Below, one piece after another: positions 4,278 through 12,165 of a stretch of DNA of 12,518 nucleotides. Every line of letters begins with the position of its first letter. Position 1 is the stretch's first letter. The DNA comes from Gallionella sp. (lineage in GTDB: Bacteria; Pseudomonadota; Gammaproteobacteria; Burkholderiales; Gallionellaceae): positions 1-12,518 of the forward strand of contig JAUYGW010000247.1 in NCBI GenBank assembly GCA_030690245.1, written 5' to 3'. The notes under the pieces are model-generated. The model saw only the letters and a program-made list of their open reading frames with translations. It had not been told where the DNA came from and searched no databases. The translations under genes were made by a program, and so were the position numbers.

Positions 4278-4364
4278 GTAGGGGCGTATGGCATACGCCC
4301 TTTTTGAAAAACAATACGCCTATTTTTGATACGCCATCAAGGGCGTATTGCCATACGCCCCTAC
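4278..4364. repeat. Inverted pair of GTAGGGGC-type palindromes between rfaE1 and hldD
   Basis: Positions 4278-4300 read GTAGGGGCGTATGGCATACG then CCC. Positions 4341-4364 carry the reverse complement of the same unit with one extra base. The 40-nt spacer holds two further degenerate GGCGTAT copies. Each arm is itself a small palindrome (GGGCGTAT / ATACGCCC), and the two arms could pair with each other in a stem of about 23 bp in the mRNA. The rfaE1 stop TAG (4361-4363) is the TAG of one GTAGGGGC unit, and the hldD ribosome site lies just beyond the other arm. Confidence 0.85.
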
Positions 4365-5302
4365 ACCTTCATATCCTGAATAATTTCTTCGCGCGACACC
4401 ACCGCCGTCCCCAGCTTGCCGACCACGATGCCTGCCGCGCGGTTGGCGATGTGCATCGCATCGGGCAAATCCGCGCCGCTCGCCAGCATCACCGCCAGCG
4501 TGGCGATCACGGTGTCGCCCGCGCCGCTGACATCGAACACTTCGCGGGTTTGCGTCGGCTCGTGCAGCGCTTCGTTGGCGCGGTATAGGCTCATGCCATC
4601 CTCGCTACGCGTAACCAGCAGCGCATCGAGCTGCAATTCGGTGCGCAGTTTTTCCGCCTTGCTGTTGAATTCCGCATCGCTCTTCCAGCTGCCCGCCACT
4701 TCGCGGAACTCGCTGCGGTTCGGCGTGAGCAGCGACGCGCCGCAATAGCGCGCGTAATCGTCGCCCTTGGGATCGACCAGCACCGGTTTGCCCGCTGCGC
4801 GCGCCAGGCGGATCATCTCGGCGATATGCGCCAGCCCGCCCTTACCGTAATCGGACAGGATCACCACATCCGCTTCCGGCAGCTTGACGCGGAAATCCGC
4901 CAGCTTCGCATTCAACACCTCATGGCTGGGCTGGGTCTCGAAATCGATGCGCAGCAACTGCTGGTGTCGCGCGACGGCGCGCAGCTTGATCGTGGTCGAA
5001 ATGCTGTTGTCGCGATGCAGCAGCGCGCTGATGTTGTCGTGCTGCTTGAGCAGTTTCTCCAGACACGCGCCCGCTTCGTCAGCGCCGACCACCGACAGCA
5101 AGGTGGCTTGCGCGCCGAGCGCGGCGATGTTGCGCGCCACGTTGGCCGCCCCGCCGGGGCGCTCTTCGACGCGTTCGACCTTGAGCACCGGCACCGGCGC
5201 TTCCGGCGAGATGCGGTTGACATCGCCGAACCAGTAACGGTCCAGCATGACGTCGCCAACTACCAATATTTTTGCGTTCTTGAATTCCGGCAATACGCTC
5301 AT
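4361..5302 (-). CDS. rfaE1: D-glycero-beta-D-manno-heptose-7-phosphate kinase (HldA / RfaE domain I)
   Basis: A PfkB/ribokinase-family enzyme that phosphorylates heptose 7-phosphate at C1 in the ADP-heptose pathway for the lipopolysaccharide core. The 313-residue protein begins [20 protein letters not shown]. It carries [14 protein letters not shown] (30-43), [17 protein letters not shown] (48-64), LSDYGKGG (149-156) and the ATP/anion-hole signature DVSGAGDT with catalytic base D263. It ends after the kinase domain, so it is the monofunctional form; the adenylyltransferase (RfaE2/HldC) must be encoded elsewhere. The ATG at 5302 is preferred: GGAGAG lies about 6 nt upstream and the family alignment begins there. 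The open frame to 5329 is derived from a repeat-associated duplication. The stop codon lies inside a GTAGGGGC palindrome. The gene stands between pyrF and hldD. Confidence 0.93.
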
Positions 5303-5312
5303 GCCTGCTCTC

Positions 5313-5383
5313 CGATTTCCTGATTCCAATTCTATTTCAAAATTTCAGGGCGCGATAAATCGCGCCCCTACGATTTCCTGATT
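5313..5383. repeat. Palindromic insertion flanked by 13-bp direct repeats at the pyrF-rfaE1 junction
   Basis: On the minus strand AATCAGGAAATCG occurs twice, at 5371-5383 and 5313-5325, exactly 13 identical bases with different bases on both sides. Between them lie 45 nt beginning with a GTAGGGGC-type palindrome (5348-5371; stem GGGCGCGAT / ATCGCGCCC, 9 bp). The palindrome encodes the last eight PyrF residues, VGARFIAP, and is followed at once by the TGA stop. Removing one direct repeat plus the 45 nt (58 bp) joins pyrF to rfaE1 through GCATGA, a stop/start overlap. The arrangement looks like an insertion with target duplication. Confidence 0.8.
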
Positions 5384-6058
5384 GATGTCGAGCAATGCCT
5401 GCAACGGGTCTGCCGCCTGGGTGATCGGGCGGCCGATCACCAGATAGCTGGAGCCGGCTTGCAGCGCGGCCAGCGGTGTCATGATGCGCCACTGATCGTC
5501 CGCAGATACATTGGCAGGACGAATACCTGGAGTGACCAGACAAAATCCCGCCCCAGCCTTTTTGCGCAATAACGCAGCCTCTTGCGCGGAACATACCACG
5601 CCATCCATCCCACTAGCTTGCGCCAATCCCGCCAGACGTAATACCAGTTCTGCAGCCGTTCCGGTGATGCCCAACTCCACAAGGTCTGCCTGCGCCATAC
5701 TGGTCAGCACCGTCACGGCAATCAATTTTGGCGGTTTAGCAAAATTCGCCAGCCCCTCGCGCGCCGCCTCCATCATGCGCCTGCCGCCAGATGCATGAAC
5801 ATTGACCATCCACACGCCCAACGCGGCGGCGGCTTTGCAGGCCTGCGCGGTGGTGTTGGGAATGTCGTGAAACTTGAGGTCAAGAAATATCTCGAAGCCG
5901 CGTTGCTGTAACTGCTCGACCAATCCCGGGCCGGTTGCGGTAAACAATTCCTTGCCGATTTTCAGGCGGCACAGTGCGGGTTGCAACCGCTCGACCAGGG
6001 CCAGCGCCGGTGCGGCGGCGGGATAATCCAGCGCGATGATGATTTTCGGATCGTTCAT
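5345..6058 (-). CDS. pyrF: Orotidine 5'-phosphate decarboxylase
   Basis: PyrF decarboxylates OMP to UMP, the last step of de novo pyrimidine synthesis, in the cytosol. The protein is 237 residues beginning [15 protein letters not shown]. Motifs seen are the substrate-binding LKIGKELF (32-39), the catalytic [10 protein letters not shown] (60-69, with D60, K62 and D65), [12 protein letters not shown], the phosphate-binding VTPGIRP and [13 protein letters not shown] near the C-terminus. The ATG at 6058 has no clear Shine-Dalgarno but lies 11 nt after the lapB stop, so translation is probably coupled. The final VGARFIAP is encoded by a palindromic repeat and is not expected to be conserved; the ancestral tail was probably GEQA. 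Position after lapB matches the order in many Proteobacteria. Confidence 0.94.
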
Positions 6059-9899: not shown

Positions 9900-11987
9900 C
9901 TAGCTTTTGGAACCTTTCGCCGGGTAGCGTGCCAGCACTTCCTGAACTGCCTGCTCGATACTCAGAGCCGTGGTATCCAGCAGAATTGCACCCGGTGCCT
10001 GCTGCAAGGGCGCCGTGCTGCGTTGAGTATCTCGCTCGTCGCGCGCCTGTATATCTTGCAAAAGGGCGGCGATATTAGCACCCATCCCTTTTTCTTTCAA
10101 CTGCTTATAACGACGCTCGGCGCGCGCCCCGGCACTGGCGGTCATGAAGATTTTCAATGCCGCATCCGGAAACACCACCGAAGCCATATCGCGCCCGTCC
10201 GCCACCAGGCCCGGCGCGCGCCGGAAGGCGCGCTGCCTGTCCAGCAACGCCGCCCGCACCCTGGGTAACGCCGCCACCCTGGAGGCTGCCGCACCGCTTT
10301 GTTCGGTACGCAGCTCGTCGCCCACCTTCACGCCATCCAGCCAGATATCCTCCCCTTCAAAAAGGATATCGATGTTCTCCGCCAAGTCAGCCAGCTGCAC
10401 TTCCGCATCCAGCGCGATGCCGCGCTGTTGCGCCGCCAAGCCCAATAAACGGTACATCGCGCCGCTGTCGAGAAAATGGTAGCCCAGCTGCTGCGCCACC
10501 CGTTGCGCCACCGTACCCTTGCCCGAAGCCGAAGGCCCGTCGATCGCGATCACCGGCACGGCCTGCGTCACAGTGGCGAATGCCGCGAAATAATCGGGGA
10601 AGGTCTTGGCGACACAACCCGGATTGTTGATGCGCACACCCGCCCCGCCAAATGCGGCCAGCGAGAAGCACATCGCCATGCGGTGGTCATCATAGGTGTC
10701 GATACCGGATTGAGGAGCGAGGATCGAGGATCGAGCAAAACCAGCTGCTCCGCTTTCCTCAATCCTGAATCCTTGATCCTCGATCCTGCTTCTCGCTCCT
10801 CGATCCTCGCTCCTCAATCCTGTAATTCGAATGTAATCCGCGCCCTCTTCCACCGTCGCGCCGACCTTGCGCAGCTCCGTCGCCATCGCCGCGATGCGGT
10901 CGGTCTCCTTGACGCGCCAGCTGGCGATGTTGCGCAGCGTGGTCGTGCCGTCGGCGAACAACGCCGCGACCGCCAGCGTCATCGCCGCATCGGGAATATG
11001 GTTGCAGTCCAGGTCGATCGCCTTCAGCTTGCCGTCCGCCGGCGCGCGCGCCTCCATCCAGTTCGGCCCCTGTTCGATCTGCGCGCCCATCAGCACCAGC
11101 GCGTCGGCGAAACGCACATCGCCTTGGATGCTGTCGCTGCCCACGCCCTCTATACGCACCGGCCCGCCGCCGATCGCGCCCGCCGCGAGAAAATACGAGG
11201 CCGAGGAAGCGTCGCCCTCGACGTAGATCACCCCCGGCGATACATAACGGCTGCCCGCTGCCACCGTGAAGCTGCGCCAGCCGTCGCGCGATACGCTCAC
11301 GCCAAAGCGCGCCATCATCGCTAGCGTGATCTCGATATAAGGCTTGGAGATCAGCTCGCCCACCACCTCCACCGTCACCTCGCGATCCAGCAGCGGCATG
11401 GCCATCAGCAACGCGGTGAGGAACTGGCTCGACACATCGCCGCGCACAGATACTCTCCCCTCTCCCGCTTGCGGGAGAGGGGCTGGGGGAGAGGGTAGGT
11501 TTATCTCCAGCGGTGGGAAGCCTTCATTACCCAGATAATCGATGTTCGCGCCCAGCGCGCGCAACGCATCCACCAGGTCGCCGATCGGCCGCTCGTGCAT
11601 GCGCGCCACGCCGGACAGCTTGTAATGCCCGCCGGACAACGCCAGCGCCGCCGTCAGCGGGCGGAATGCGGTGCCCGCATTGCCCAGGAACAATTCGGCA
11701 TCCTTGACCGGAAAACGAGCGCAGCGAGTTTCGCTAAAGTTGCCGCCGCAACCAGTCACGCGGAACACATGCGTATCGAGTTGCTCCACGCCGACACCGA
11801 GGATACGCAGGCCATCCAGCATGCGTTCGGTATCGTCCGACAGCAGCACATCGCGCACCTCGGTCGCGCCGGAGGACAGCGCAGCCAGCAACAGCACGCG
11901 ATTGGAGATACTCTTCGAGCCGGGCAGCGTGATCGTGCCGTGGGCGGTCAGCAAAGGGGGAAGGTCGAGATAGTTTTCGGATGTCAT
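9900..11987 (-). CDS. aroA-cmk: Fused 3-phosphoshikimate 1-carboxyvinyltransferase / cytidylate kinase (AroA-Cmk) with two repeat-derived inserts
   Basis: The 695-residue protein joins EPSP synthase (about 1-472), which condenses shikimate 3-phosphate with PEP, to CMP/dCMP kinase (about 478-690). AroA landmarks are [10 protein letters not shown] (21-30), [11 protein letters not shown] (101-111, class I type), [14 protein letters not shown] (182-195), [14 protein letters not shown] (257-270), NHIPDAAMT (329-337), WRVKETDR (357-364) and [12 protein letters not shown] (431-442). Cmk has the P-loop [11 protein letters not shown] (482-492), DSGAMYR (507-513) and [13 protein letters not shown] (597-609). 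The domains meet with almost no linker ([20 protein letters not shown]), as if the aroA stop and cmk start had been lost. Two stretches do not look like AroA: 164-178 ([15 protein letters not shown]) and 390-427 (38 residues), both encoded by palindromic DNA and both between conserved blocks where E. coli AroA has loops. The ATG at 11987 has AAGG 10 nt upstream; a TTG at 12005 is less likely. Confidence 0.94.
10707..10820. repeat. 114-bp inverted-repeat element of degenerate heptamers, in frame inside aroA
   Basis: The element is bounded by inverted repeats at 10707-10734 and 10793-10820 that match at 27 of 28 positions. In minus orientation the left half is a run of degenerate heptamers of the type AGGATYG (AGGATTG, AGGAGCG, AGGATCG, AGGATCA and others). 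Its length is exactly 38 codons and its ends fall on codon boundaries (residues 390-427 of the fusion). Of the three frames on the coding strand only the one used lacks stops. Confidence 0.85.
11451..11499. repeat. C/T-rich palindromic repeat inside aroA
   Basis: Positions 11457-11468 (CCCCTCTCCCGC) pair perfectly with 11471-11482 (GCGGGAGAGGGG), a 12-bp stem with a two-base centre. A second G-rich copy, GGGGGAGAGGG, follows at 11485-11495. The unit reads as [15 protein letters not shown] in the AroA frame (residues 164-178). From memory it matches a very widespread dispersed proteobacterial repeat; copy number cannot be counted here. Confidence 0.8.
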
Positions 11988-12066
11988 TGGGAGCGAACCT
12001 TGCAACAGACTGTGCTAAAAATTCAAGGGCGAGATGATACCGCAGAGGGGAATTGTGCGCATGGTT

Positions 12067-12140: not shown

Positions 12141-12165
12141 GTAGGGGCAGGTCTCAGACCTGCCC
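12141..12165. repeat. GTAGGGGC-type palindrome with AGGTCT core
   Basis: GTAG is followed by GGGCAGGTCT (12145-12154), a single C, and AGACCTGCCC (12156-12165), a perfect 10-bp stem. The GTAGGGGC...GCCC frame is the same as in the copies at 4278-4364 and 5348-5371, while the palindrome core differs. Confidence 0.85.

Follow-up and report, generated by a model that had tools for sequence, protein, structure and literature searches.

The GTAG REP at the pyrF-rfaE1 junction and its described relatives

The closest described systems are the GTAG REPs and BIMEs, which, as presented in the main text of PMC3733652, are short stem-loops with an unpaired GTAG head that occur in many copies and in inverted pairs, lie just after genes, encode residues at protein ends and often provide TAG stops to ORFs. 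That main text makes no mention of Gallionella or Sideroxydans by name; it lists 'S. lithotrophicus' (probably Sideroxydans) as CGTC-positive. The REPINs of Pseudomonas (PMC3116915) are likewise miniature, made of inverted REP pairs and linked to REP-associated tyrosine transposases (RAYTs; TnpA-REP, NF047646, PDB 4er8), and the spread of REPs has been called poorly understood (PMC8266576). Our literature search found no paper joining Gallionella with REP elements and nothing relevant on coupled micro-ORFs made by duplication, which is not proof of novelty for either.

The window analysed here (the whole stretch of 12,518 nt, contig 92 of the Gallionella assembly G000, which is 82.5% complete) carries an element of this kind between two genes on the minus strand: pyrF (OMP decarboxylase, 237 aa; 5345..6058; ORF and Pfam PF00215) and a PfkB-family kinase gene (4361..5302, start ATG 5302-5300; ORF and Pfam), which we take to be rfaE1, following the preliminary description. 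Exactly two copies of the 13-mer AATCAGGAAATCG lie in the window, at 5313-5325 and 5371-5383 on the minus strand with starts 58 nt apart, and the 13-mer is absent from all of 200 dinucleotide shuffles. The 45 nt between the copies (5326-5370) are the remainder of the palindrome GTAGGGGCGCGATTTATCGCGCCC (5348..5371, minus strand) and a further 22 nt; coordinates, reading frames and palindrome are all as the preliminary description gave them. Junction copy 1, AATCAGGAAATCG (5371..5383, minus strand), holds the last codons of pyrF proper, to which the relatives' codons are homologous, and its final G doubles as the G of GTAG. Junction copy 2, AATCAGGAAATCGGAGAGCAGGC (5303..5325, minus strand), lies immediately 5' of rfaE1 and resembles the second copy of REP-less relatives. 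The last eight PyrF residues (VGARFIAP) are encoded by the REP, the next codon is the stop TGA (5345-5347), and 42 nt separate this stop from the rfaE1 ATG. The PyrF C-terminal end of REP-less relatives differs, and the new tail and the 42-nt gap ascribed to an insertion are both borne out.

The window palindrome is an ordinary REP element of the GTAG type: an imperfect palindrome with GTAG at one foot and a 9-bp stem, belonging to a class with dispersed copies above control and frequent inverted pairs. The stem is seen in an RNA fold; for the surrounding 111 nt as a whole the predicted stability is unremarkable (z -1.32; 22 of 200 shuffles equally good), and Rfam gave no matches in the window at gathering scores. 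Genome-wide work on G000 consisted of pattern searches and individually retrieved stretches. The pattern GTAGGGGC-N4..24-GCCC has 81 matches in this genome versus 13 for the reversed control, with stem variants GCGATTYATCGC, GTATGGCAATAC, GAATTCATTC and others. An inverted partner end lies at most 100 nt away in 32 of 55 REP rows; the window copy is single, which in the terms of PMC3116915 is a defunct remnant. Among 37 genus genomes the pattern matches 146 times in G008 and not at all in G006, G029 and G031, with reversed-control counts of 1 to 40 per genome.

G000 also encodes a full-length RAYT of 150 aa (C281; NF047646 score 146 bits against a cut-off of 80; a single solved relative, the TnpArep 4er8), which is bracketed by GTAGGGGC palindromes about 62 nt 5' and 24 nt 3', as in the described RAYT systems. 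These REPs differ from the window copy in being of the GAATTC-stem type, sister to the window's GCGATTYATCGC type, for which no RAYT partner was found in G000. A second RAYT-type gene (C34, L213) is broken up, with GTATGGC-type GTAGGGGC elements inside it, and two of its pieces match NF047646 below cut-off (20.8 and 42.4 bits). Another small element (AGCCACTTATCC... / ...GGAATGGCTATGCA) was observed inside REPs: at the L065 junction (G000:C106) it sits in the REP loop, and at L081 in the partner half of a REP pair.

Behind the window palindrome lies a tail, TTGAAATAGAATTGGAAT (5323..5340, minus strand), that looks like one end of a roughly 125-nt inverted-repeat element present in several genomes of the genus. 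A 19-mer form of the tail (up to 2 mismatches) is present in 14 of 37 genus genomes and its reversed control in none; the tail sequence also follows REPs at L249/L283, L262/L276, L263/L280 and L269/L293. The 18-nt TTGAAATAGAATTGGAAT is similar to the inverted terminal repeats of a set of 124-191 nt elements, in which the two arms often covary (as ATTCCAATCCTATTTC does with GAAATAGGATTGGAAT). Elements of this size at L279, L284, L286, L296, L297, L300, L301 and L304 have 16-nt arms like ATTCCAATTCTATTTC / GAAATAGAATTGGAAT and, by eye, no evident target duplication; none of the Y1-type transposase loci retrieved has a close match to this arm. The left-hand end of the 125-nt GAAATAGAATTGGAAT element is absent within 260 nt of the window tail; inverted terminal repeats at both ends, as in that element, are not seen here. 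A composite of a REP with an GAAATAGAATTGGAAT end was not seen in the passages of PMC3733652 compared here. The idea that the 22 nt are a remnant of the first junction copy was dropped, as the 19-mer gave 27 more genus matches beyond three pyrF junctions, some of them adjoining REPs. We propose to define the insert as REP plus tail, 5323-5371 (49 nt); the apparent 13-bp repeat would then reduce to 9 bp (CAGGAAATC), because AAT is the end of the tail and G belongs to GTAG.

Other parts of the window hold repeats as well. The rfaE1 stop TAG sits within the GTAG of another REP, as described in PMC3733652, and the rfaE1-rfaD spacer contains an inverted REP pair of the GTATGGC type (4278..4364, no strand assigned; pattern search and relatives), with a close match in G017 among eight aligned relatives and a similar pair in G026. 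In most genomes examined this spacer holds, by eye, a hairpin or tandem-arm element of varying kind (REP pairs; GGGAGAA, GTGAAAC, GATTGAG and GAGTGGT arrays; CCCTCTCCC hairpins), as if it were a continually refilled spot. A single REP of a different stem type, GTAGGGGCAGGTCTCAGACCTGCCC, lies at 12141-12165 (plus strand). At 9900-12005 (minus strand) aroA and cmk look like one ORF, and its AroA part has segments resembling repeats inserted and read in frame (by eye).

Filled and empty junctions in the genus

We searched 76 genus genomes and read 68 junction alleles from 67 of them, the other nine having no usable junction (no match, a contig end or a REP-only match). The gap between pyrF and rfaE1 is at most 14 nt in 36 of the 68 alleles, the short one-copy junctions, and exactly 37 nt in 10 of the 68, all REP-less; 8 alleles carry a REP and 14 are of other kinds. 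Among the short junctions, 28 of 36 are an exact 4-base overlap of the ATGA type; of the other eight, five lie at +2 and in three the stop precedes the assigned start by 4-5 nt, and within these eight the start codon of G009 and G091 was misassigned by the method. The preliminary description predicted an empty junction reading through GEQA into ATGA, and the G016 junction reads AATAAAGAAATTGGAGAACAGGC/ATGAGC, that is NKEIGEQA with TGA overlapping ATG. A small element is thus inserted at the pyrF-rfaE1 junction, as had been claimed. The companion claim, that removal of 58 bp restores the ancestor, holds insofar as the coupled junction exists in relatives; this deletion product is not the sole possible ancestor, because REP-less alleles with two junction copies and a coupled micro-ORF exist as well.

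REPs are carried by the alleles of the window, contig 106 of G000, G021, G082, G083, G072, G064 and G099. In all eight the REP begins directly after the same base (..GAAAT[C/T]), and in seven of them a tail of related appearance (by eye) comes after it. G099 lacks the tail and has the REP followed by a copy 2 starting with ATG, a two-copy layout; G072 has REP and tail and no copy 2 that can be recognised; and in G082 both stem arms of the REP are changed (GTAGGGACGTGATTCATCACGTCC). Contig 106 carries a second pyrF-rfaE1 pair whose PyrF is 82% identical to the window's, which suggests a mixed-strain bin. Different inserts occupy the junction in G092, G085 and G023 (by eye).

Coupling was scored by tracing stops and starts through the 68 junctions. 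Each of the 10 gap-37 junctions contains a micro-ORF with a 4-base overlap at either end, one with the pyrF stop and one with the rfaE1 start; it has 9 codons in eight alleles (e.g. MNQKSAGRS, MNQEIGGTA; two begin with TTG) and 7 codons in two. This pattern is partly automatic, because a 26-nt duplication bounded by ATGA yields an in-frame micro-ORF. Among the 14 other junctions, three are coupled directly, five have a micro-ORF linked to pyrF, three have a micro-ORF not joined to pyrF and three have none (the script scored G007 and G032 as not pyrF-coupled; by eye the first micro-ORF links both). In G092 another palindrome pair lies inside the micro-ORF and is read through as 42 codons, still ending at rfaE1. 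None of the 8 REP alleles is linked to pyrF, six lacking a micro-ORF and two having a separate one. Judging from these layouts, ribosomes may use the junction micro-ORFs.

Origin of the flanking repeat and of the REP alleles

Our preferred reading, with a probability of about 0.64, is that an older tandem duplication of the junction was followed by the arrival of REP and tail in copy 1, the flanking repeat being the two old copies. The ancestral junction would have been a stop-start overlap, and in a sub-clade a 26-nt stretch (the last pyrF codons and the ATG) would have been duplicated in tandem, placing a second copy 5' of rfaE1. A GTAG-class REP carrying a tail of 25 nt, of a kind for which RAYTs are the presumed movers, would then have arrived in copy 1 directly after the Ile codon (..GAAAT[C/T]), and the second half of copy 1 would have been lost. 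The outcome would be a PyrF with a REP-encoded tail and early stop, and an rfaE1 left 42 nt downstream. We infer this order of events, the RAYT as mover and the effect on translation from the alleles and elements described here.

A second junction copy beginning AATCAG is found in ten REP-less alleles, eight of them of the 37-nt class (26 nt spacing), the other two being G069 and G070. In G077 it begins AATCAGGAAATCGGAG, with the window's 13-mer intact and 16-nt identity to the window; the copy 2 of the remaining two 37-nt alleles (G081, G061) is unlike. Among the eight REP alleles the flanking repeat is perfect only in the window: over 13 positions, copies 1 and 2 differ at 0 in the window, 4 in G021, 5 in contig 106, 5 in G082, 3 in G083, 5 in G072 (where no real copy 2 aligns), 3 in G064 and 5 in G099. 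The window's two copies are identical because its copy 1 reads AATCAG instead of the AACAA. of 6 of the 8 REP alleles. We rejected AATCAG as a diagnostic marker of copy 2, since 7 of 33 gap-11 alleles also begin AATCAG and one of them, G036, matches the window copy 2 at 16/16 positions; the enrichment of CAG in copy 2 versus copy 1 across 15 duplicated alleles gives a Fisher p of 0.025, ignoring kinship. Counting against the older duplication are the loss of some 13-17 nt of copy 1 that it needs, the missing recognisable copy 2 in G072, the one-copy G016 as nearest relative (see below), and the REP alleles not forming one clade.

On the pyrF tree (G069, truncated, was excluded) the 8 REP rows take 7 changes, about as many as under shuffled labels (mean 7.7), and at least 6 changes are forced by well-supported branches. 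A tree of the last 250 nt of pyrF requires 8 changes, and one of the first 250 nt of rfaE1 requires 6 (shuffled mean 7.6; 26 of 500 shuffles reach a value this low); on the latter, four REP alleles form a weakly supported group with G016 (85/68). Among the best 120 of 4524 protein matches to PyrF, 34 have REP-type tails, judged on protein letters only, with at least 10 changes forced. The history could not be rebuilt from pyrF by itself: pyrF, rfaE1 and the REP state give conflicting pictures, and recombination is therefore likely. One of the best 120 matches, P0089, reads NNEI-GEQA and shares a poorly resolved fork with relatives of the NNEI-VGA and NNEI-VGT forms; its reading is one such as a deletion between two junction copies would give (compare PMC5576700 on E. 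coli, with much longer repeats). Recombination and loss appear to act at the junction, and possibly repeated arrival as well.

Independent REP arrivals at one hot spot, with junction alleles exchanged between strains by homologous recombination, would be compatible with the older duplication, and we regard them as a tentative possibility at somewhat less than even odds. The scatter of the REP state on the pyrF tree and among the best 120 of 4524 PyrF matches would be expected from such arrivals, as would the tailless G099 and the other inserts in G092, G085 and G023. The constant insertion base and the related-looking tail in seven of eight alleles (by eye) argue the other way, and the weak grouping of four REP alleles with G016 in early rfaE1 would fit one origin plus recombination.

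The preliminary description explained the flanking repeat as a 13-bp target-site duplication. With the insert written as above, the 49-nt REP and tail (5323-5371) would have entered a junction with one copy, as in G016, and caused a duplication of about 9 bp (CAGGAAATC), which AAT and G extend to an apparent 13. The perfect 13/13 repeat of the window agrees with this and no deletion is required. Across a 100-nt block spanning the junction, the nearest of six REP-less relatives is the one-copy G016 (89%; two-copy G020, G027, G025 and G012 69-82%, one-copy G017 71%; the comparison ran without G062, G084 and G077), fitting a single-copy insertion with duplication, and the one-copy G036 has the same 16 bases. 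Against it stands the rest of the family. Of the 55 REP rows, 51 have no abutting repeat of at least 4 nt and 54 none of at least 6 nt, the row with a 17-nt repeat lying within a tandem array; this test is blind to repeats displaced by a tail. With the right copy allowed anywhere in 60 nt, 68 of 70 element-orientations (a count that takes each pair once from either side; the 55 rows also include a few single palindromes twice) have no repeat of at least 7 nt. The exceptions are the window (13 nt) and a 9-nt repeat near another REP pair (L087; chance expectation about 0.1), the latter a point in favour of duplication. Other tail-bearing REPs show no flanking duplication by eye, and transposition of the IS200/IS605 type is not known to leave one.

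A second filled and empty site points the same way. On contig 326, in a gene pair that we take to be gltB-gltD, the first gene has a lone REP at its end, read in frame as VGAQFIAPEKVS. G017 lacks it and is 27 nt shorter there, with both flanks 92% alike and no visible duplication. The REP is absent in 27 of 27 relatives measured, three of which have other inserts (28 of 30 loci were measurable, one being the window's own genome). The window element thus shares with classical MITEs and ISs a small insertion between direct repeats, and differs from them in that fixed-length direct repeats are not found at many copies, duplication is no habit of this REP family, and the second junction copy exists without the element. 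Taken together with the imperfect repeats of the other REP alleles, these observations make a target-duplication mechanism unlikely and probably wrong; we rank it second, after the older junction duplication, which more likely explains the repeat than an insertion scar does.

Ordinary intergenic decay, with palindrome and repeats arising by chance, deserves almost no credence, given the control counts, the eight alleles with a REP and the change of both stem arms in G082, and we found no points in its favour.

The junction as a natural series of coupling states

A broader reading, which we consider doubtful, is that the junction is a self-duplicating coupling device: tandem 26-nt copies of the stop-start overlap would build chains of short micro-ORFs along which ribosomes pass from pyrF to rfaE1. 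The REP allele would then be a widespread, reversible, decoupled state, lost by palindrome-aided deletion between the copies, with both kinds of allele kept in natural populations.

The REP element itself is ordinary; it is the coupled pyrF-rfaE1 junction that is unusually restless, and we find its dynamics moderately interesting. The filled and empty sites at pyrF-rfaE1 and gltB-gltD place single REPs at a gene's last codons just before the next gene, in one case (gltB-gltD) without a visible target duplication. The pyrF-rfaE1 alleles form a natural series, with gene pairs that overlap, pairs linked by a micro-ORF and pairs that are separated, in which the worth of translational coupling is directly testable.
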